Below, piece after piece: positions 5,165 through 15,512 of a DNA stretch of 62,507 nt (position 1 is its first letter; every line of letters starts with the position of its first letter). Location: NCBI GenBank assembly GCA_026391835.1, contig JAPLDF010000010.1, forward strand, positions 1 through 62,507, written 5' to 3'. The position numbers were made by a program, and so were the translations under genes. The notes beneath the pieces were generated by a model that was not told the DNA's origin, did no database searches, and saw only the letters and a list, made by a program, of their open reading frames with translations. The stretch is from Bacteroidota bacterium (GTDB lineage: Bacteria; Bacteroidota; Bacteroidia; Bacteroidales; FEN-979).

Positions 5165-5707
5165 ATGAAAACAACCTTATTCTCGATAATCCTCATGTTA
5201 TTTACAAATCTGGCATCTGGACAGACGGACAGCAAAGAAGCCTTGTCAATCGGCGATCATTATGGAGGGGGAATCATATTTTCCATCGATTCAAAGGGCC
5301 AGCATGGTCTCATTGCACTTCCTTCAGATCAACCAATAAAGACTTGTTGGGGGGATAAAGGGCTTACCAATGCTACGCTTATGAATGAGGGCGCATCAAA
5401 TACTGAGAAAATAGTCGCTTTTGTGAAAAAGAGTCGGTGGCCAGGATGTGAAGTTCCGGTAGCTTGTCTGTGTGACACATTAACATCAGGTGGGTATCAG
5501 GACTGGTACCTTCCCGCAATTAACGAGTTGAAGGAAATGTATGACAAGCAAAAATTGATTGGAGGTTTTGCGGCGATGAATTATTGTAGTTCAACCGAAA
5601 GTACCAATGTTAAATGCTGGAGTATCCATTTCATGCCAAATAGGAAAATAATTTTTGAGGGGTTGAAATCTGAACTGTATTATGTGCGCTGCATCCGAAA
5701 GTTTTAG
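5165..5707 (+). CDS. secreted DUF1566 (Lcl C-terminal-like) protein, copy 1
   Basis: A 180-aa protein with a signal peptide (residues 1-19, cleavage after LASG). The rest is one DUF1566-like domain: it opens with GDHYGGGIIFSIDSKGQHGL (about 30-49), passes through a DWYLPAINELKEMY core (about 117-130), and ends with a YCSSTES block and YYVRCIRKF. These are hallmark positions of the family, which is used in surface or adhesive proteins and shares a C-type-lectin-like character. Four or more cysteines suggest disulphides outside the cytoplasm. It is a paralog of the gene at 6312. The pair is bracketed by the direct repeat at 4847 and 7018. The role is unknown. Confidence 0.85.
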   Translation: MKTTLFSIILMLFTNLASGQTDSKEALSIGDHYGGGIIFSIDSKGQHGLIALPSDQPIKTCWGDKGLTNATLMNEGASNTEKIVAFVKKSRWPGCEVPVACLCDTLTSGGYQDWYLPAINELKEMYDKQKLIGGFAAMNYCSSTESTNVKCWSIHFMPNRKIIFEGLKSELYYVRCIRKF

Positions 5708-6311: not shown

Positions 6312-6914
6312 ATGAAAACAATAATTTTCTCAATTATCCTCACTTTTTTCCTCAACAGTGCCATCGGTCAACCCGATACTGTACAAACCTTATCAATTGG
6401 GTCCCATTGTGAGGGAGGGGTTATATTTGCTCTTGACTCAAAAGGCAAGCATGGTTTTGTTGCCGCCCCATTTGATCAAGCGACAAATGCAATGTGGGGG
6501 CATTCTGGCTATACGAACGCTACTTATATGAATGATGGGGAAAAAAACGCAGGAATGATCATCTCATTTATCCATGATATTACCATACAACCTGAAAAAA
6601 TTAAAAATATAGAGAAAAGTGTTACATCGAAAAAGGGGTCAGTCATTTATTCAGAAAATGTTGCAGCCTGCATATGTGACACAATGATGCTAGGAGGTTA
6701 TAACGATTGGTACTTGCCATCAATAAACGAATTAAAAGACATGTACGATAAGCAACAGTTGATTGGAAATTTTGTAGCCGGGGACTATTGCAGTTCTACT
6801 GAGTGTGGATTTAAGGACTGCTATAATATTCATTTTAGGCCCCACAATAAAATAATTTTCCAATATAGAAAATACAGTAATATATATGTAGTTAGGTGTA
6901 TTCGTAAGTTTTAA
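6312..6914 (+). CDS. secreted DUF1566 (Lcl C-terminal-like) protein, copy 2
   Basis: A 200-aa paralog of the 5165 gene, with the same signal-peptide type (residues 1-19, ending SAIG) and the same domain landmarks: HCEGGVIFALDSKGKHGF near 32-49, NDWYLPSINELKDMYDKQQ, DYCSSTE, and YVVRCIRKF at the end. It carries about 20 extra residues in the middle (Lys-rich, about 95-115, around EKIKNIEKSVTSKKG) that copy 1 lacks, and the two are clearly diverged. The tandem arrangement suggests duplication followed by divergence of a surface protein; the function is unknown. Confidence 0.85.
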   Translation: MKTIIFSIILTFFLNSAIGQPDTVQTLSIGSHCEGGVIFALDSKGKHGFVAAPFDQATNAMWGHSGYTNATYMNDGEKNAGMIISFIHDITIQPEKIKNIEKSVTSKKGSVIYSENVAACICDTMMLGGYNDWYLPSINELKDMYDKQQLIGNFVAGDYCSSTECGFKDCYNIHFRPHNKIIFQYRKYSNIYVVRCIRKF

Positions 6915-7157: not shown

Positions 7158-8825
7158 TTAAAATATTTCAGGATAAAGAGCTTCAATAAGTCTGTCACAA
7201 TCGAAATTCTGAGGTGGCATGTTCTTGTATAGCTGTTCTAGTTTCCTCTGAAAGGTTCCCTTTTTGTCAAGAATGATTAATTTATCCCAAAGGCCATAAT
7301 GCTTAAATGCAATTTCTATATATTCCCAATACTCCTTGTAATGTTCAATTGAATTATTTGCAAAAGCAATCCATTCTGTTGGTTTATACTTAAATCCAAT
7401 AATTTCACCGGATTTTGAAGAATCAATGATATGGATCAGGTTAGAATGGCTAAACATTAAACTAACCAAATCCCTATTAACCAATTCATTGGCATGGCGA
7501 AATAATGACAGTTCACGTTTTATTTCTGCTTCATCATGAATCCAGTTCATGAATGACTGCTCATCTTCGGTACGTAATTTATAGCCGCGTTTGACAAGTT
7601 CAATTAAAACACTTTTTGGGTTAAGTAAATTGGTGTTTGATATCACTTCCTGAAATGCACTGCGCTCCTGTGAATCGAGCGCAGTGATATCAAATTCTAT
7701 TTCCTCGCATGTCAAAATAAATTCAAGAAATGTCTCATCCTTTTCCTTTGCAGTTTCAATCCACAAGTTTACCGGAGGCTTCCTGGATTTGGAGGCTATT
7801 AAATTAAGTTTTTGATTTAGCAGGGAGATTTCAGCATCGTCAAGATTGTTAATCAATTTAGTAACCTGAGTGTATGAATAAGCATGTCTGTTTTTAAAGT
7901 TTTTAATCGTATCAATAATCTTATTAATTTTCGGGATCGTATTTGCCGACCATTGTTCTTCAAATCTTATCTTTTCAACTTCTCTTTTCTCATTAAAAAT
8001 CATGTTCTGCTTTTCTTCCAGATTTGCTTTGTGAGAACCAAAATCATAATAATAAATTTGATATGATTCATAGGAGAACTTAATTTCCGTAAGTGCCAGG
8101 GATTTGTTTATCCACTTTGTGATTAGCTTGTTTTCCGGAGTTAAGAATACGAATTTGTAATCACAAGCCAGGCGAAACTGTTCAGAATCCTCATCAAGTT
8201 TAAAGAAATTCTGATATTCCGTCAAGTATTTAATATCTCGTTCAAGTTGCGTTTGGCCATGAATGTTAAAATTATCCAGAATCCAAATTAAAAACATTCC
8301 ATGTTTCCTGTAGAACTCATACCTGCTAAGGATATATCTGAGAGACAAATCAGAAAGCTGAATTTCAAAAACCAGTTCTTTGTCATTGTATTTGCAGTAC
8401 ACATCAGGCTTTCTTTTATCATTGCCTCTGATGATGAATTTGTTATCAATGGCAATTGATTGGGGATCGACCCCCTGGACCATTGATAGTTTCTGGCCAA
8501 TTTTATTCTTTAACTCAAAATGTCTGTCACTTTCTTTGGCAATCAAAATTTTAGTTATTTTCTCCAATTCCTCAGGGGAAATCCCTTCACTTTTGAGAAT
8601 ACAATCGTTTGATTTTGGCTGGTGTTTAAAATGCAACCGATCATATTTACTGGTCGAAACATTCAACTTCTGATCACACTCGCAACAATATAGTTCTACC
8701 TCATCCGTATGAAATTGCTTTCGTAGAATAAAACCGTCCTTTTTATCGTCAAAAATTTGATCAGCTTCAAGTAATTCACCAGATATTTTATCGAATGCGA
8801 TTTTTATTGAACGGTCTTTAATCAT
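7158..8825 (-). CDS. CoiA/DUF6035-like putative nuclease
   Basis: A 555-aa cytoplasmic protein without signal peptide or membrane helix. Residues about 45-80 hold a zinc-binding-like knuckle: YCCECDQKL, then FKHQPKSNDC. Residues about 135-185 contain RKPDVYCKYNDKELVFEIQLS, an Asp...Glu-x-Gln pattern typical of restriction-endonuclease-fold (PD-(D/E)xK-like) cores such as CoiA and DUF6035. It is followed by a YEFYRKHGMFLIWIL strand-helix-strand. The C-terminal 300 residues are helical, charged and not recognised. The zinc knuckle plus nuclease core suggests a DNA-processing or defence role. The gene sits alone beside the repeat-bracketed DUF1566 segment, in an accessory setting. Activity is inferred from motifs only. 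Confidence 0.7.
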   Translation of the reverse strand: MIKDRSIKIAFDKISGELLEADQIFDDKKDGFILRKQFHTDEVELYCCECDQKLNVSTSKYDRLHFKHQPKSNDCILKSEGISPEELEKITKILIAKESDRHFELKNKIGQKLSMVQGVDPQSIAIDNKFIIRGNDKRKPDVYCKYNDKELVFEIQLSDLSLRYILSRYEFYRKHGMFLIWILDNFNIHGQTQLERDIKYLTEYQNFFKLDEDSEQFRLACDYKFVFLTPENKLITKWINKSLALTEIKFSYESYQIYYYDFGSHKANLEEKQNMIFNEKREVEKIRFEEQWSANTIPKINKIIDTIKNFKNRHAYSYTQVTKLINNLDDAEISLLNQKLNLIASKSRKPPVNLWIETAKEKDETFLEFILTCEEIEFDITALDSQERSAFQEVISNTNLLNPKSVLIELVKRGYKLRTEDEQSFMNWIHDEAEIKRELSLFRHANELVNRDLVSLMFSHSNLIHIIDSSKSGEIIGFKYKPTEWIAFANNSIEHYKEYWEYIEIAFKHYGLWDKLIILDKKGTFQRKLEQLYKNMPPQNFDCDRLIEALYPEIF

Positions 8826-9557: not shown

Positions 9558-10112
9558 TTATTTTGGCCGCCAATACGGATCAAACTCCTTCACCTGCCCG
9601 CCAATATTCCCGATGTCATAAGAAACCGCATCGTCCCCGTGCCTCTTGCTTTTATGATTGTCAATGATCAGGCAAAAGGCGATGATCAGTTCATGGTTGC
9701 AGTCATTGTCGGCGGTGATGGCGTAGTTGTCGCCTTCGAACCAGCTGACGGCTTCTTTTTCCCACCAGGCAACCTGGGTATTGTTCCGGTAAACCGAAAA
9801 TTTTCTTCCCCGATGGCCATACAGATGATAAATGTCGGGACTGCAATGACACTGATAGTGCATGTCCCACCATGAATCCGCCCTGAATTCAACGGTACTG
9901 TTGTCGTGAAGCCGGATCGTATATTTCGGTTTCCAGAAAAACCATTGCTTGCTGATCGTGACCCTGGCCCCGGAGTCATCGTTCCTGAACAGGTTGATGA
10001 CCGACAGCAGCCTGAACAGTTCATTGGATGCCCTGTATGCCGGTTGGCCATCTATGAAGATTTGATATTTATCACCAATGGCAATTTTCTTCTGGTTAAT
10101 ATCTATGCGCAT
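9558..10112 (-). CDS. LURP-one/tubby-like domain protein
   Basis: A 184-aa soluble protein without signal peptide. It has the alternating beta-strand pattern of the LURP-one-related (tubby C-terminal-like) fold: KYQIFIDGQPAYRASNE near 15-31, a Trp-rich middle (ISKQWFFWKPKYTIRL), a later KFSVYRNNTQVAWWEK block (about 103-118), and a hydrophobic final helix around LIIAFCLIID. In that fold the central helix is buried in a 12-stranded barrel. Bacterial members have no established function; scramblase-like lipid binding has been proposed for relatives. The gene is last in the minus-strand cluster, 36 bases after the 677-aa gene, so co-transcription is likely. Confidence 0.55.
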   Translation of the reverse strand: MRIDINQKKIAIGDKYQIFIDGQPAYRASNELFRLLSVINLFRNDDSGARVTISKQWFFWKPKYTIRLHDNSTVEFRADSWWDMHYQCHCSPDIYHLYGHRGRKFSVYRNNTQVAWWEKEAVSWFEGDNYAITADNDCNHELIIAFCLIIDNHKSKRHGDDAVSYDIGNIGGQVKEFDPYWRPK

Positions 10113-10148
10113 TTGTACACAGTTTTTTTACAAAGATATGCGGATAAG

Positions 10149-12182
10149 TTACTTTTTCGACTTCGTATAGAAATTGAAAACCGGGATGTCAACGACCAGC
10201 GCAGCACTGAAGCGCCAGTAAACATTGTCCTGGTAGCTGTTGATATAGGTGCCGGGATTCTTCTTGTCCTCCACATATACGCTTCTCAGGTTGGGGCCAA
10301 CCTGTGCGCCGAGGTTGAACGACAGCGGACATTTCGGAAGCCCGATGGAGAGGAACAGGCCGGGAGAAAAAATATCCTGCAGCTTGATCGTCGGAACCTG
10401 CGCGACCGAGTCGCTGTTCTGAAACCTGAAGGAGGCAACGGCGCCGATGTCGACCAGGGAGATAAAGGCCGAATAGGACCAGTGATGCACCCCGGTGCTG
10501 ATCGCAACGCCGATCGGCGCAGCCACGCCATAGTTGTTGATCATATGTTTGTCGTTAACGCCCACAATCATCTCGTGTGCCACAAACAACCCGGTATATG
10601 CATTCAGGGAGACATTAAAAGGCGTTTCCCGCTTGATCCGCGAACTTCCTGAAGGAAGGGCGGCCGTTTCAATGGCTTTTTCAACTTCATCGGCATTCTG
10701 CGCCTGGACCACAGATGCCATGAATGAACCAAATTTAAGCAGGCTGTTTTTGAAGTCATCGGTTTTCCCGTTGAGCAATTTCCTGTCCTCCAGGAGGGAT
10801 GCTGCGGCTTTTTGCTCTTCCGGGGTTTTGGTTTTGTCGGAAATGATGCTTTCAAGTTTGCCGTTATCGCCGCCAAATGCGGTGTTATACAGCGTATAAA
10901 CATTGATAACGGCCGAACTGTAATTCTTCCGGTTGATGTCGAGGGCGATGTTGCCGCCCGTCCGCCCGATGATCATGTACCTGTTGAAATCCTTCGGGGG
11001 CTTCAGTGCAGCCAGGCCCGGCAGCTGGTAAGCCTCGGCGGCATACCCGATGAGGTCGAGGGATGCATTGTAAAAATTAAAGTAGTCGGTAAAGGTTAAT
11101 TTGTCCTGTTCCCTGCCTGACAGGTTTTTAATGTTCGCGGAAACCACAGCTGCTTTTGCAACGAATCCGGTAAGATAGGTGTCAAAATCATGGATGGCTG
11201 CAATGCTTTTCCCGAATTTCTCCTGTATGGTGGTATTGTCGTCCAGCCTGATACCGCTGACTTCCTGGTAGACCAATCCAAGATAGAGCCGGAGCGTGAG
11301 ATCGTCTTTCATAACCATCTGCAGGGAGTCGGCCGGAATCCAGTACTGGCTGGTTCCCCTCGAACGTACGGATTCGGAAAAAACCTGCAGCACTTTAACC
11401 GCCGCTTTTACATTGTTCGGCTGGCTTGCCAGGAGCTTGCCGGGATCGTACCCTGCGATGATCTGGCCGGGATGAACCTTGTTCAACAGCCCGTTCCCGA
11501 TATAGACGGAAGAAAGGCAGGCATCTTTCAGCTCGCCATGTTTGTTGAAAAACGGGGTATAGTCACTGTTGTTGATTACATCCGGCAAACTGGTCAGCAA
11601 TCCGGTCAAATCTTTTTCGAATGCTTCCCGCAGGGAATTCATATAGGCCTGGTAGTTGTATACCTCATCTCCAATGGCCTGCAGTGTCGCATACGTCTGC
11701 GGAAACAGGATCATGGCATCCTTATGCTTCTCCAGGAAGGTTTTCAGGCGGTCAAAGAAGGCAACGTTCATCTCTTCCCTGGTCCGCTTAACCAGGAATT
11801 TCGCAAACTCATCGGCAATGCTGGTGACATCGAGGTTGCCAACATCGGCAAGAATCGATTTTGCAGATATATTGGTCACACCCAATGGTACGGCGACATT
11901 CAGGTAAGGGGCAATAAATGGATTGTAATTGTTGTTGCCCGGGTTATTGGTGGTGATGGCACTGATGACGTTGTGGTAATCGGTGTTGTCGGGAAGGTCG
12001 TGGCAATACTTTAAAAGCACCTCCGACACCGCTACCAGTGAAGCCCTGTCATTTTTAAAAACGGGAGGGGAGGCCTGCCTGTCAATAAAGGATGCCAGCC
12101 TGGCGGCATCGTAATAAGCTATCTGCCCAAAGGAGAAGCTGGCAAACAGGCACACCAGGCCGGATAAGATCAGTTTTTTCAT
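10149..12182 (-). CDS. secreted protein with helical body and probable beta-barrel C-terminus
   Basis: A 677-aa protein with a signal peptide (residues 1-19, ending SFSFG). Residues about 20-510 are mainly helical and soluble, with no motif I recognise. Residues about 520-677 alternate hydrophobic and polar residues in short strands: FNVSLNAYTGLF, then SYSAFISLVDIGAVASF, then GLFLSIGLPKCPLSFNLG, then WRFSAALVVDIPVF. That is the pattern of an outer-membrane barrel or barrel-like sheet. It starts 4 bases after the subtilase gene stop. This suggests an outer-membrane component working with the protease and membrane protein encoded upstream. The family is not recognised. Confidence 0.75.
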   Translation of the reverse strand: MKKLILSGLVCLFASFSFGQIAYYDAARLASFIDRQASPPVFKNDRASLVAVSEVLLKYCHDLPDNTDYHNVISAITTNNPGNNNYNPFIAPYLNVAVPLGVTNISAKSILADVGNLDVTSIADEFAKFLVKRTREEMNVAFFDRLKTFLEKHKDAMILFPQTYATLQAIGDEVYNYQAYMNSLREAFEKDLTGLLTSLPDVINNSDYTPFFNKHGELKDACLSSVYIGNGLLNKVHPGQIIAGYDPGKLLASQPNNVKAAVKVLQVFSESVRSRGTSQYWIPADSLQMVMKDDLTLRLYLGLVYQEVSGIRLDDNTTIQEKFGKSIAAIHDFDTYLTGFVAKAAVVSANIKNLSGREQDKLTFTDYFNFYNASLDLIGYAAEAYQLPGLAALKPPKDFNRYMIIGRTGGNIALDINRKNYSSAVINVYTLYNTAFGGDNGKLESIISDKTKTPEEQKAAASLLEDRKLLNGKTDDFKNSLLKFGSFMASVVQAQNADEVEKAIETAALPSGSSRIKRETPFNVSLNAYTGLFVAHEMIVGVNDKHMINNYGVAAPIGVAISTGVHHWSYSAFISLVDIGAVASFRFQNSDSVAQVPTIKLQDIFSPGLFLSIGLPKCPLSFNLGAQVGPNLRSVYVEDKKNPGTYINSYQDNVYWRFSAALVVDIPVFNFYTKSKK

Positions 12183-12186
12183 TTAC

Positions 12187-13308
12187 TCAGGATTTTTTGT
12201 TGATTAAACTCAGCGCTGCCGGCGGATCAAGGATTCCCCAGCCAAAATCGACGGTGTTGTAGTTTCCCGCGACGTTGATGTCGGCGCTTCGTTTCAGGAT
12301 ATCATATAACTCCATGTTGGTCAGCGAAATGTTCTTGTTTTTTGCAACGGCCTTCAATATGGCGACCACACCGGCAGCGAATGGTGCTGAGAAGCTTGTT
12401 CCGCTTATCCGTTCACCTGTATCGAATACCGATTTCAGATTCTCACCCGGGGCCATCAGGTCCAGGAAATTGCTTTTTGCCGAATTTATACTTCTTCTTC
12501 TCGTCCTGTCGATTCCGCCAATGGAAAGCGATTCAGGGAAAGATGCCGGGTAACTGTCAACAGGAAAATTCAATGCGCCGCTGTCGCCTGCGGAAGCCAC
12601 AACAGCAATATCTTTTTGATAAGCCTCTTTAATTTTGGCGTAAATATCGGCAAAATATTGATCATCCTTCCCTATGCTGAAACTTAACGAGATTACATCG
12701 GCCCGAAGTTCGATTGCTTTTTCCAGCCCGTTGAGAATGGCAGCCGGGAGCCTTTCTCCCTTCTCGTTGGTTATTTTAATAACGAGCAGGGTGATTTCGG
12801 GGGCAACACCGAAGAGTACATTCCCCTGCGCACACAGGATGCCTGCACAATTTGTCCCGTGTCCGTCGGCATCATCCAGGCAATCGGTGGCGTTCGCGGA
12901 ATCATTCACCGCGTTATAGTAAACGATGCCCTGCTTGTTTTTAAAATCAGGCAGGTTGTAATTCAACCCCGAATCAAGCACAACCACCCGGATGTCATTG
13001 CCTTTTGATGATTTCCAGAGTTCTTCAATCCTGAAATCAATAAATCCCCAGTCTTTTGAGTCTGTATGAGATATCAGCGGGAGTCTTTCGGCAGGGCTGC
13101 TTACCTCGGTAAGCCCTCCTCCCCAGTAATAGTAGCCGTCCCGGTCTTTAATCCACTTGCCAAGTGCATTGGCAAGTTCCGGCACTTCAGTTCCTTCAAA
13201 GGTGAACCCGCTGTCGACCACGCCGGCAATATTCGATTTATCAGTGAGGCTGGAGGCCGGGAACTTCCTTTTGTTCAGGTGGGCTAGGTTAACCATATAT
13301 TTTGCCAT
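12187..13308 (-). CDS. subtilisin-like serine protease (S8)
   Basis: A 373-aa protein with a complete S8 triad: D112 in VVVLDSGLN, H150 in DGHGTNCAGIL, and S305 in GTSFSAPFAAG. The oxyanion-hole position, usually Asn in an AGN motif, is Asp here (D242 in ASAGDSG), as is known for proprotein convertase 2. There is no signal peptide, so the enzyme is cytoplasmic or exported by another route. The first 90 residues are not a classical inhibitor propeptide and include KWIKDRDGYYYWGGG (51-65), a Trp/Tyr/Gly motif. The gene sits 3 bases downstream of the membrane-protein gene and 4 bases upstream of the 677-aa gene, so the three are one operon. Confidence 0.92.
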   Translation of the reverse strand: MAKYMVNLAHLNKRKFPASSLTDKSNIAGVVDSGFTFEGTEVPELANALGKWIKDRDGYYYWGGGLTEVSSPAERLPLISHTDSKDWGFIDFRIEELWKSSKGNDIRVVVLDSGLNYNLPDFKNKQGIVYYNAVNDSANATDCLDDADGHGTNCAGILCAQGNVLFGVAPEITLLVIKITNEKGERLPAAILNGLEKAIELRADVISLSFSIGKDDQYFADIYAKIKEAYQKDIAVVASAGDSGALNFPVDSYPASFPESLSIGGIDRTRRRSINSAKSNFLDLMAPGENLKSVFDTGERISGTSFSAPFAAGVVAILKAVAKNKNISLTNMELYDILKRSADINVAGNYNTVDFGWGILDPPAALSLINKKS

Positions 13309-13311
13309 GAC

Positions 13312-14760
13312 TTAACCTGCAGCCTCCTCGCCGGGTTTTTGGGTGTTTACCGTCACACTTACCGGCGCCGAGGCAGGTGCGGGGGTTGAGGGCGTGGGGG
13401 CTGTGGTTCCACCCGTTTCTTTCTTGCCGGCATTCCGCATATTGACCAGCTTGTTCAGCAAATCAAACCAGAAGGGCGCCCCCAGGGAGATGGCAAATGC
13501 GAAAATCAGGAATCCAAGGAACTTCTTCCCGCGCGCAGATTCCCTGATGACATAGCCGACCTTGTATTTTATCCAGTGCTCGTCATACAAACGGTCCAGG
13601 ATCTTTTGCGCACATTTGATACTGTCGGATTTTGATAACCTGGGAATAACCGGGCAGCAGGAATCCAGTTTCCCGTTTTCAATCAATACGGCTTTCCCGT
13701 TTTTTTGCTTTCCGTAATCTCCCCAGCCAATTGCCAGGATTTCATTTGTTGACGCTATCTCGCCCCGGAGCAGGTTTCGTACTGAATCAAATTTAGCCTG
13801 GTATTGCTTAAAGATGGAGTCGTTATGGGAATTGGCTGCTGATGCAGTATCGGGGACCAATGTACCGTTCTTCGTCTCTACTTTTTTTACCCGGGGATCG
13901 TCCTTGTATTTATCCACAGCCTGGATTGACAGCTGAACCAGCTTGTCCCTGGCGTCTTTGTCTTTTGACAGCGTGCCGGCAATCCGGATGATGTCGACAT
14001 TGAAGATGACCGCCAGGATTATCCCGATGAAAAATGTAATGATTGCGGCCTGCCGCTTATACCAGCCCCCCACCCGGACCATGGAATCGTCGTACCAGTT
14101 TTCGATTTTCCCGGTAAAAGTTTCGAGGTTATAACAGCTGTCACGCAGGTGCATCTGGAGTATCTGCAGGGTTTCAAGGTCGATTTCCGGTTTTTTGGCT
14201 GGAATAATCCCTGTTGCATAAATGGTATCGTAATAGTTAAACAGTTCCATCAGTTTGGCAACATCTGAACTGCTCATGAGATCCTGCCTGATTGTGGCCA
14301 GTTTACTTATATTGTCCGGGTTTTTGAATTTGGACAGGGCAATGTCATCGACTTTTGCGTTAAATACATTTTTCAACTGGTCGATTAAGACGGCCGAGAA
14401 GTTTTTCGTCGGTATGTACGACGGTTTTGAAAAGATCCTCCCCGAACCATAATTTTTTATGATGGGGTGGTCAAAAAACTTGTGCCCGATGCTGTTGGTG
14501 TCAGTTTTTATAAAACTCTTTCCAAGGAGCATCCTGACAATTTCATCCAGGGTCCGGAGAAACCCTTTAACAATGCTTGCCCACCGGCCGTCCTTTGAAG
14601 TATCGGACAGCATGCCGACAACAATGGCGTTTTTCAGCATCCTGGCCCGCAGGCTAAAAAGCGATGCAATACTCTCGTTTATGGATGTGGCCAGTAAACT
14701 GTACAACAGGAAGATGAATACCAGGCCGATGGTAACATCCAGCAAGGGTGAATTGAACAT
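13312..14760 (-). CDS. membrane protein of unknown function
   Basis: A 482-aa protein with three predicted membrane helices: an N-terminal one (about 8-35, IGLVFIFLLYSLLATSINES), a central one (about 240-262, ITFFIGIILAVIFN) and a late one (about 415-437, FLIFAFAISLGAPFWF). The opening DVTIGLVFIFLLYSLL...INE is a pattern I associate with a widespread uncharacterised bacterial family. Residues about 445-482 form a Pro/Thr/Ala-rich tail. Between helices two and three lies a polar domain of about 150 residues, probably periplasmic. It is the first of three tightly packed genes with the subtilase and the 677-aa protein. It could anchor or be a substrate of the protease; that is inference. Confidence 0.75.
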   Translation of the reverse strand: MFNSPLLDVTIGLVFIFLLYSLLATSINESIASLFSLRARMLKNAIVVGMLSDTSKDGRWASIVKGFLRTLDEIVRMLLGKSFIKTDTNSIGHKFFDHPIIKNYGSGRIFSKPSYIPTKNFSAVLIDQLKNVFNAKVDDIALSKFKNPDNISKLATIRQDLMSSSDVAKLMELFNYYDTIYATGIIPAKKPEIDLETLQILQMHLRDSCYNLETFTGKIENWYDDSMVRVGGWYKRQAAIITFFIGIILAVIFNVDIIRIAGTLSKDKDARDKLVQLSIQAVDKYKDDPRVKKVETKNGTLVPDTASAANSHNDSIFKQYQAKFDSVRNLLRGEIASTNEILAIGWGDYGKQKNGKAVLIENGKLDSCCPVIPRLSKSDSIKCAQKILDRLYDEHWIKYKVGYVIRESARGKKFLGFLIFAFAISLGAPFWFDLLNKLVNMRNAGKKETGGTTAPTPSTPAPASAPVSVTVNTQKPGEEAAG

Positions 14761-14857
14761 GGTCCGACGATTCTTTTAGCCTACTCTTTATACCGGATTT
14801 TCGGCAACTCCGTATCTAAGATGCGTAAAGGCCAGGTTTTTCCAAACACCACGATAT

Positions 14858-14924
14858 ACCGCGAAGACGCTAAGACGCAAAACGTAGAGAATTTTAATTA
14901 TTTGCGTCTTTGCGTCTTTGCGGT
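14858..14924. repeat. long imperfect hairpin, repeat family A
   Basis: Arms 14858-14881 and 14901-14924 pair at 22 of 24 positions around a 19-base AT-rich loop. Each arm is itself built of ACGC(A/T)AAG-type units (GCGAAGACGCTAAGACGC). The same hairpin family recurs at 59696-59774. It lies between the TIGR02594 gene and the membrane-protein gene. Such palindromic units are typical of dispersed REP-like elements in Bacteroidota. Confidence 0.8.
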
Positions 14925-14963
14925 GAGTATGGGTTTTCAGACCAATGAAAAAGCCTTCCCGGG

Positions 14964-15512
14964 TCAGAATTCCTTTCCAGAAAGCTCCCCTGATTCAGGA
15001 AGTATGATCTGTCTTACATTCGCCGGTTGCACATTGTAAGGCGTGCGCCGGGCAATATAAAGCTGGCTCTTGTCTTTTCGTACAATGCAAACCCTGTCGG
15101 ACTGGTTGCCTCCCAGGATATGGTAGCATTTTGAGTCCTCGCCCACATACATGGCCACATGGCCGGCTTTTTTTCCGTCGGCTGTTGTACGGGTGAAAAC
15201 GAGGATGTCGCCAAGCATCGGTGTTTCAGTGTGGGTGCCGAATGTTCCCCAGTTCAAGGCCCACAGGGGGTCTTTGACAACCTCTTTGCCGGCTCTTTTG
15301 GCAATGACGGCGATGAACAGTCCGCACCACGGAATTTCATCCGACTTGTACACTGATGCAACATTGGCGCCGATTTCAGCCGCCCACGAGATGATCACAG
15401 GATTGTTGGCAGTGCCCGGTGATTCGATCACGTCAATCAGTTTTAATGCTTCAACCAGCATTTTGGGTCCTCCTTCGGCTGCAAGCCATTGATATTCTTT
15501 CTTTAGTGGCAT
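14964..15512 (-). CDS. TIGR02594-type NlpC/P60-like peptidase
   Basis: A 182-aa protein matching the TIGR02594 family: a helical start, then the catalytic block EIPWCGLFIAVIAKRAG with Cys near residue 63, a LGDILVFTR strand, GHVAMYVGED with the catalytic His near 117, and ILGGNQSDRVCIV near 132. Members are papain-like, CHAP/NlpC-type enzymes thought to cut peptidoglycan peptides, and occur in phages and bacterial accessory clusters. No signal peptide is seen. It lies upstream of, and on the same strand as, the membrane protein/subtilase/barrel cluster, separated by 203 bases with a hairpin. It has its own good promoter (15580-15610). Confidence 0.82.
   Translation of the reverse strand: MPLKKEYQWLAAEGGPKMLVEALKLIDVIESPGTANNPVIISWAAEIGANVASVYKSDEIPWCGLFIAVIAKRAGKEVVKDPLWALNWGTFGTHTETPMLGDILVFTRTTADGKKAGHVAMYVGEDSKCYHILGGNQSDRVCIVRKDKSQLYIARRTPYNVQPANVRQIILPESGELSGKEF

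Follow-up and report, generated by a model that had tools for sequence, protein, structure and literature searches.

The DNA analysed here, called the window, is a stretch of 62,507 nucleotides from a Bacteroidota bacterium (contig JAPLDF010000010.1), and the subject is a cluster of five minus-strand genes, A to E, listed with their features in Table 1. An original prediction, made from the letters alone, had described them as one functional unit; all five open reading frames (ORFs) were re-found where it had placed them, separated by 36 (E/D), 4 (D/C), 3 (C/B) and 203 (B/A) bases. Sequence comparison suggests that B, C and D form a recurring, apparently undescribed module of a membrane protein, a leaderless enzyme and a secreted protein; the pairing of protease and membrane protein singled out by that prediction returns, in the order and spacing B-C-D, in many genomes.

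Table 1. Genes and sequence features of the cluster, with their positions in the window
Feature	Position	Strand	Remark
A, TIGR02594-type peptidoglycan hydrolase	14964-15512	minus	NCBIfam assignment; optional neighbour upstream of B
B, inner-membrane protein with three transmembrane helices, 482 residues	13312-14760	minus	Constant component, proposed dock
C-terminal tail motif EEAAG of B	13315-13329	minus	Proposed docking peptide; family forms EEAVG / NRVG / LNREG / DIKG
C, leaderless subtilase (S8), 373 residues	12187-13308	minus	Cargo enzyme
N-terminal SH3-like adaptor domain of C, about residues 1-68	13105-13308	minus	Same domain heads other enzymes at the same place elsewhere
D, secreted protein, 677 residues, helical body and C-terminal barrel-like domain	10149-12182	minus	Protease-associated partner
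Conserved low-confidence linker of D, residues 508-520, ALPSGSSRIKRET	10623-10661	minus	Lies between the body and the barrel
Barrel-like C-terminal domain of D, residues 522-674	10161-10619	minus	Nine modelled strands
E, 184-residue protein	9558-10112	minus	Judged outside the module

Three hydrophobic peaks of B, at about residues 6-24, 240-258 and 414-432, fall within helices of its structure model (mean predicted local distance difference test score, pLDDT, 85.9), in agreement with its earlier description as a three-helix membrane protein. Net positive charge peaks after the first (+2.43) and the third (+2.67) of these segments, a bias from which the C-terminus is predicted to lie in the cytoplasm. 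Relatives of B are mostly about 290-570 residues long and have a soluble loop that is large. B has no match to a Pfam, NCBIfam or PHROG family above cut-off or at E ≤ 0.01 and none to a PADLOC model at E ≤ 1, and the structure model has no fold match in the PDB at E ≤ 0.001 (best 0.27). In an NCBIfam scan of 75 B proteins each named family matched a single member weakly, and a sequence search of solved structures with the B and D profiles gave weak matches alone.

The distribution of B is wide and patchy. A scan of one genome per species confirmed at least 576 relatives among at least 591 pattern matches, of which the best 80 were kept. B was matched in 11 of the 60 genomes of the window relatives set (12 of 61 with the window's own genome), in 32 of the 395 genomes of a sample of the window's phylum and in 71 of the 348 genomes of a sample of one order; it also occurs on plasmids of Pseudomonadota, Cyanobacteria and Bacteroidota. 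A phage origin was considered and rejected, as no match at E ≤ 0.01 was obtained in 50,697 phage records and no PHROG was matched. On three plasmids of Alphaproteobacteria (L033, L258, L259) B lies downstream of a gene for a vanadium-dependent haloperoxidase. The order B-C-D is kept among near relatives in L038, L041, L042 and L047 and in many loci of the one-genome-per-species scan. At the syntenic site of genome G014 the backbone genes are 64 to 92% identical to those of the window, while B and C are about 30% identical; for D, identity is about 35% in the body and 76% in the barrel end. This far greater divergence of the cassette indicates that it diversifies, or is exchanged, faster than its surroundings.

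Genes around B were counted in a training set of 97 loci (one a duplicate; 1573 ORFs) and in a hold-out set. Duplicates were removed from both (L050, L089 and L120, equal to L037, L038 and L040; hold-out L197, L198, L202 and L252, equal to training loci), and no B was called in L068 (training) and L238. Ninety-six non-duplicate places were scored as B, a few of them doubtful, and 77 of these have a same-strand gene no more than 130 bases downstream, designated the +1 gene. The 96 include L087_11176, an SH3-trypsin protein lying just after its B and falsely called as a B by a profile that contained trypsin tails; it was excluded from the tail, codon, Mantel and D counts.

In the window the +1 gene is C. 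Its match to PF00082 (8.4e-39), its intact triad (Asp112/His150/Ser305) and the lack of a hydrophobic leader are those of a leaderless subtilase, as had been proposed. The solved structures nearest in sequence are intracellular serine proteases (aligned residues 91-340, best E 2.9e-30). Intracellular serine proteases are leaderless subtilases too; C differs from them in carrying an SH3-like N-terminal domain and in being encoded 3 bases after a membrane protein. A candidate dead subtilase in L047 was rejected: the alignment has the DHS triad in 33 of 34 rows, and the exception, L119, is a trypsin.

Elsewhere the position next to B is occupied by enzymes of quite different kinds. The Pfam tally of the 77 +1 genes comprises S8 (21), GH25 (7), GH46 (7), Amidase_2 (4), the DUF900 alpha/beta hydrolase (4), papain of family C1 (2), GH19 (2) and patatin (1); four +1 genes are D itself. 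A start between -4 and +3 bases from the stop of B is found for 49 of the 77. Among 71 further operon genes, hand-picked for the Pfam tally from 130 upstream or more-downstream entries, patatin was matched 8 times, CHAP and PG_binding_1 4 times each, S8 and metallophosphoesterase 3 times each, and Peptidase M15, VanY and M19 twice each, with single matches to Tle1-like, phage lysozyme, caspase, nuclease and lipase models and unrelated families besides. C and the other enzymes that share its N-terminal domain have no leader, though many act on peptidoglycan.

This domain, of about 65 residues, was detected in 43 of the 77 +1 genes, as a rule at the N-terminus (internally in L073), and Arg14, Trp52 and Trp62 are invariant in 27 aligned copies. 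It is fused to subtilase, GH25, GH46, GH19 and alpha/beta hydrolase domains by Pfam, and to trypsin and VanY-like domains by eye. Three of five relatives matched SH3_3 or SH3_5 of Pfam at E values of 0.03 to 0.16, below the cut-off, and the other two and the window copy gave no match; the domain is consequently named SH3-like only. Its placement follows B closely. In the training set it is present in 51 of the 1573 ORFs, 44 at +1 and 6 at +2 of B, and the 51st copy, scored at position 0, is the above-mentioned L087_11176. The hold-out set contains ten copies, nine at +1, one at +2 and none elsewhere. Across 24 whole B-bearing genomes, 17 matches were obtained in 15 genomes, 15 directly downstream of B and two (G186, G758) one gene further. 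On this evidence the SH3-like domain would be a tag dedicated to B.

The same association is visible on the side of B, in its last residues. In the tail counts, places lacking the FW motif (L036_9346, L063_12257, hold-out L241 and L248) and one at a contig end (L055) were excluded, and fused or long B proteins (above 600 residues; 5 training, 5 hold-out) were kept apart. With an SH3-like gene next, glycine is the final residue of B in 40 of 44 cases of the training set and in 9 of 9 of the hold-out set; with none next, the figures are 6 of 43 and 4 of 39. In the training set, a trace of the tag was seen downstream in L037, and in L077 the profile missed what by eye is a tag-like start; two of the four hold-out exceptions are loci with D and traces of a protease (in another frame in L232, degenerate in L205). 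Tight spacing to a next gene without a detected SH3-like domain is accompanied by the motif in only 1 of 9 training and 0 of 6 hold-out cases. The arginine at tail position -3 is encoded by six codons, and the valine and glycine codons vary as well, from which it follows that conservation acts on the protein. Furthermore, tail residues covary with the SH3-like domain beyond the similarity of the B cores (partial Mantel r 0.44, p 0.0005, 52 pairs, the set additionally without L042 and L073). Where a trypsin is fused to the tail of B, the motif is absent (L040, L043, L044, L067 and L123 by eye; in the hold-out set L207 by profile and L231 and L233 by eye), and the fusion thus seems to replace docking. 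The importance that the original prediction gave to the tail of B is therefore borne out; the regulated cleavage at which it hinted is not shown for the tail, whose conserved feature is the last residues, which track the SH3-like domain of the next gene. A proline-rich tail serving as an SH3 ligand was also rejected, the proline content being similar with and without a partner (0.072 vs 0.084).

A different tail was seen in L031 (8001-10101), L032 (8001-10005), L240 and L244, all with amidase cargos, where B ends in LPAAQGG, LPAAEGG or LPQAEGG and the next protein opens with a common WLP...AGLKV...GWE.RG segment, in Pseudomonadota as well as Bacteroidota. The LPxAxGG tail and the amidase N-terminal segment are a possible second docking pair. 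In L090, L101, L118 and similar loci, the genes after a variant of B encode, in no fixed order, a small lipoprotein (by eye), a protein of 108-114 residues, and either an amidase or a papain; neither tag nor D was detected there, and the envelope partner is perhaps a different one.

The third component, D, has a signal-like N-terminus with a hydrophobic peak at residues 4-22, a helical body and nine modelled strands at its end (mean pLDDT 73.7), consistent with the secreted, barrel-ended protein that had been proposed. D has no Pfam or NCBIfam family above cut-off, no PHROG at E ≤ 0.01 and no PADLOC model at E ≤ 1; in a Pfam scan of 28 D proteins every named family matched one member, weakly. 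Foldseek gave the barrel a weak likeness to small outer-membrane barrels (PagL, probability 0.41; Ail, 0.23), none at E ≤ 0.001. The linker before the barrel is well conserved: Pro510 and Ser513 are identical in 28 of 28 proteins, and mean conservation over residues 505-520 is 0.63 against 0.40 overall, with the helical stretch at about 115-140 conserved more strongly still. Since residues 508-513 are conserved and yet modelled at a pLDDT below 50, the linker would suit a cleavage site.

Within the B loci, D goes with proteases. Of the 39 loci in which B has a serine protease nearby, 34 contain D, against 0 of the 54 others (93 loci; Fisher 2e-20, a value inflated by shared ancestry). The protease class is the union of S8 and trypsin, so the counts are the same whether a gene was called as one or the other; the trypsin of L119 had sat among the S8 seeds. 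The five exceptions are L044, which ends 1.2 kb past B, L123, in which no D was seen, L032 and L094, whose S8 genes are untagged, and L117, where a different secreted barrel-end protein occupies the place of D. This second family (L117 12496-14361, L203 4600-6750, L204 4965-7166) replaces D after tagged trypsins; it is unrelated to D in sequence and, by eye, secreted and barrel-ended. The fact that D is seen only when the enzyme is a protease makes it more likely the substrate, activator or guard of the protease than a general exit pore.

Taken together, these data are best described by a model in which B would be the constant part, an inner-membrane dock. The peptide at the end of its tail, which is predicted to be cytoplasmic, would bind a leaderless enzyme, encoded immediately downstream in close coupling, through the N-terminal SH3-like domain that this enzyme carries. 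Such a cargo would be swappable, a subtilase in the window and elsewhere a trypsin, a GH25 muramidase, a GH46 or GH19 enzyme, a VanY-like peptidase or an alpha/beta hydrolase. Upon some signal, the cargo would be turned against an envelope, either at the membrane or after passage through it, with conflict or lysis as the most likely setting; a protease cargo would be accompanied by D, perhaps its substrate or activator via the linker before the barrel. That B recruits leaderless envelope hydrolases by its tail peptide, with D as the envelope partner of the protease, is the interpretation to which we lean, with somewhat more than even confidence.

Several observations weigh against this interpretation. 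The charge bias of B is modest, and the flanks of the second loop are slightly positive too (+0.76, +1.45). The profile of the SH3-like domain was made from +1 genes, which renders its training placement partly circular; the hold-out set and the genome-wide search are the fair tests. No SH3-like match was obtained in 9 of the 24 B-bearing genomes (G003, G005, G018, G020, G027, G097, G198, G313, G752), and unfused B proteins without a detected partner amount to 43 of 87 in training and 39 of 48 in the hold-out set. Four of the nine genomes (G018, G020, G027, G313) have a trypsin fused to B, and the copy in G097 was found by the training profile, so the genome-wide domain search misses some copies. 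The covariation of tail and domain may reflect joint inheritance, as the tail end of B and the start of the next gene are adjacent DNA, and more generally the p-values are too small, because the loci, collected for their similarity to B, are not independent of one another phylogenetically. The raw hold-out table for D reads 8 loci with both, 4 with protease only, 4 with D only and 39 with neither; on inspection a protease is present in L231, L232 and L233, the second family takes the place of D in L203 and L204, the S8 genes of L215 and L242 have no tag, and L205 is degenerate. A D-profile match was found in 17 of the 395 phylum-sample genomes, 8 of them without a B match; the remaining 9 also match B, two of them weakly (G202) or as a fragment (G250). 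D-like proteins apart from B suggest that D belongs to a wider family, one branch of which serves the B module. Nine D-like regions that were fetched show other contexts, among them L263 (2240-6277), beside a caspase-like gene (by eye) and with no B. Finally, no immunity gene or secretion machinery was recognised, in a search for them that was not systematic.

The most serious alternative, which overlaps with the docking model and which we regard as rather unlikely, is programmed self-lysis or lytic release, in which B would be holin- or gate-like and pass leaderless hydrolases to the producer's own wall, releasing its contents or accompanying enzymes. The existence of leaderless cargos (GH25, GH46, GH19, amidase) with a substrate beyond the membrane, the matches of A to PHROGs of tail lysozyme and endolysin, and the precedent of phage lysis cassettes and type 10 secretion all speak for it; the size of B and its relatives (mostly about 290-570 residues), their large soluble loop and the lack of a PHROG match do not, and subtilase, trypsin and patatin are not typical lysis enzymes. 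Intracellular defence, with membrane-docked enzymes that sense invasion and kill the infected cell in the manner of protease-activated gasdermins, is less probable and in our view unlikely. It would account for the patchiness of B (12 of 61 in the relatives set, own genome included, and 32 of 395 in the phylum sample), for exchangeable toxic enzymes, for the pairing of a protease with a second protein and for the strong divergence that the cassette shows in G014 at a syntenic site (30% identity for B and C). Against it, wall hydrolases have no cytoplasmic substrate and D is secreted, unlike a gasdermin; moreover, no PADLOC model was matched at E ≤ 0.05 by A, B, D, E or the nearby gene at 7158-8825 described below, and C matched only the generic subtilase model (1.4e-18) and, weakly, IetS (0.036).

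It is also conceivable, but quite improbable, that the tail motif is an artefact of translation coupling or hitchhiking and that co-transcription is all that links the genes. Both glutamates are encoded by GAG in each of the 15 tails that have two, so that a ribosome-binding signal could underlie that stretch, which counts against the docking model, and 49 of 77 +1 genes start within the narrow range given above. Tight coupling without a detected SH3-like domain, however, rarely gives the motif (1/9, 0/6), there is codon variation at Arg, Val and Gly, and B proteins with a fused enzyme lack the motif. A role in envelope maintenance, with a regulated protease and an outer-membrane protein acting in quality control, appears very improbable: the triad of C is kept and the linker of D is conserved, as such a role would predict, but wall and lipid hydrolases occupy the same slot, the distribution is patchy, and the divergence of the cassette is far above that of the syntenic backbone.

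Phage holin-endolysin cassettes and type 10 secretion, like the module, place a membrane protein beside leaderless wall hydrolases. B is unlike the small holins in its length of 482 residues, in having no PHROG match at E ≤ 0.01, in its cargo-associated tail motif and in pairing also with proteases and lipases. The effector repertoires of type VI secretion include amidase, muramidase, phospholipase and nuclease classes, and the enzyme classes of the module resemble them, a Tle1-like Pfam model having matched 1 of the 71 neighbours; the difference is that no type VI component or immunity gene is found among A to E.

Another parallel is offered by the EAD conflict systems. In the parts of their description used here, a small adaptor domain recruits interchangeable effectors (trypsin, lysozyme-like, papain-like) and S8 domains occur (Kaur et al. 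2020, PMC7159879); System 3 includes NucA, trypsin and subtilisin (Kaur et al. 2020, PMC7159879), and the same EAD is found on the core protease and on the effectors, with NTPases in some systems (PMC7159879). As far as that portion of the account goes, both arrangements swap effectors via a small adaptor domain, whereas in the module the SH3-like domain would bind the free C-terminal peptide of a membrane protein and no NTPase is present in A to E. The SH3-like domain is found on the cargo side only, and B ends in a short peptide. No NTPase, vWA or nuclease core was recognised among A to E by Pfam, NCBIfam or PADLOC, and no EAD-named family is among their Pfam matches (E ≤ 1), no dedicated EAD profile having been run. 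On a plasmid of Hymenobacter canadensis (L032, 1994-16321) the neighbours of B are a pair of amidases, an M19-like hydrolase and an S8 protein whose N-terminal part looks trypsin-like by eye; this locus also carries an annotated non-specific nuclease and is reminiscent of System 3 in the part of that description used here (PMC7159879).

Gasdermin-protease pairs such as the fungal HET-Q1/HET-Q2 have, in the portion of the source drawn on, a subtilase gene by a possible membrane-active partner (PMC10989679). Compared with that portion, the module differs in D, a secreted protein whose end is barrel-like, and in the apparent attachment of the protease to an inner-membrane dock; no gasdermin was found among 50 of the 531 Foldseek matches of D, which also has no Pfam family above cut-off. 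No B-like protein appears in the part of the Lipocone superfamily account that was covered (PMC12419801). The components of the module and its peptide-to-domain arrangement thus differ from those of EAD systems, lysis cassettes and type 10 secretion. By title and opening of the abstract, a scope outside which subscription papers and preprints lie, no published description of this gene combination was found. It is possible, although we put this forward only tentatively, that B, its docking peptide and the SH3-like tag constitute an undescribed machine in which the tag decides which leaderless folded hydrolases are deployed across the inner membrane, D-type proteins being envelope partners specific to proteases; such tag-based export or toxin arming would set it apart from known secretion systems and from EAD conflict systems.

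The two remaining genes of the cluster fared differently. The assignment of A as a TIGR02594-type hydrolase holds (90.9 bits against a curated NCBIfam cut-off of 70.55), and A matches PHROGs of tail lysozyme and endolysin. A-like genes lie on the strand of B in five other non-duplicate loci, upstream in L034, L038, L078 and L109 and downstream in L074. Genome G001, which has no B match, carries at the same HD/M28 site a copy of A that is 86% identical, and the gene after it also looks hydrolase-like by eye. For E, the proposed LURP-one/tubby identity was not recovered: it has no Pfam or NCBIfam family at E ≤ 1, no PHROG at E ≤ 0.01 and no PADLOC model at E ≤ 1. Apart from the window genome itself, 10 of the 60 relatives have a match to E, up to 88% identical; nine of these ten regions were inspected and show no neighbour matching B, C or D, and E and B lie on different contigs in four genomes (G005, G016, G018, G027). 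With no B, C or D beside it in the inspected relatives, E is taken as a bystander. The five-gene unit is therefore rejected, and the original prediction as a whole is partly supported. B and C recur together and D stays with the protease in loci gathered via B, while E is found outside B/C/D contexts, A is an optional neighbour, and D in part occurs apart.

Beyond E, the gene at 7158-8825 encodes a CoiA-like nuclease protein (DUF6035, DUF7829, DUF7830) with no match in 20 sampled relatives, probably a recent arrival beside the module. Two plus-strand genes at 5165-5707 and 6312-6914 encode proteins with Lcl_C matches below cut-off; similar genes lie near E in G018 (L191).

The module may be a new way for bacteria to arm or lyse cells. 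If the proposed docking is correct, the widespread protein B, which belongs to none of the families searched, would be the constant part of a modular weapon or lysis system. To find new cargo enzymes, one could then simply read the end of B together with the first 70 residues of the protein that follows, and there would be an explanation of why subtilases, trypsins, muramidases and lipases share one slot beside unnamed membrane proteins.

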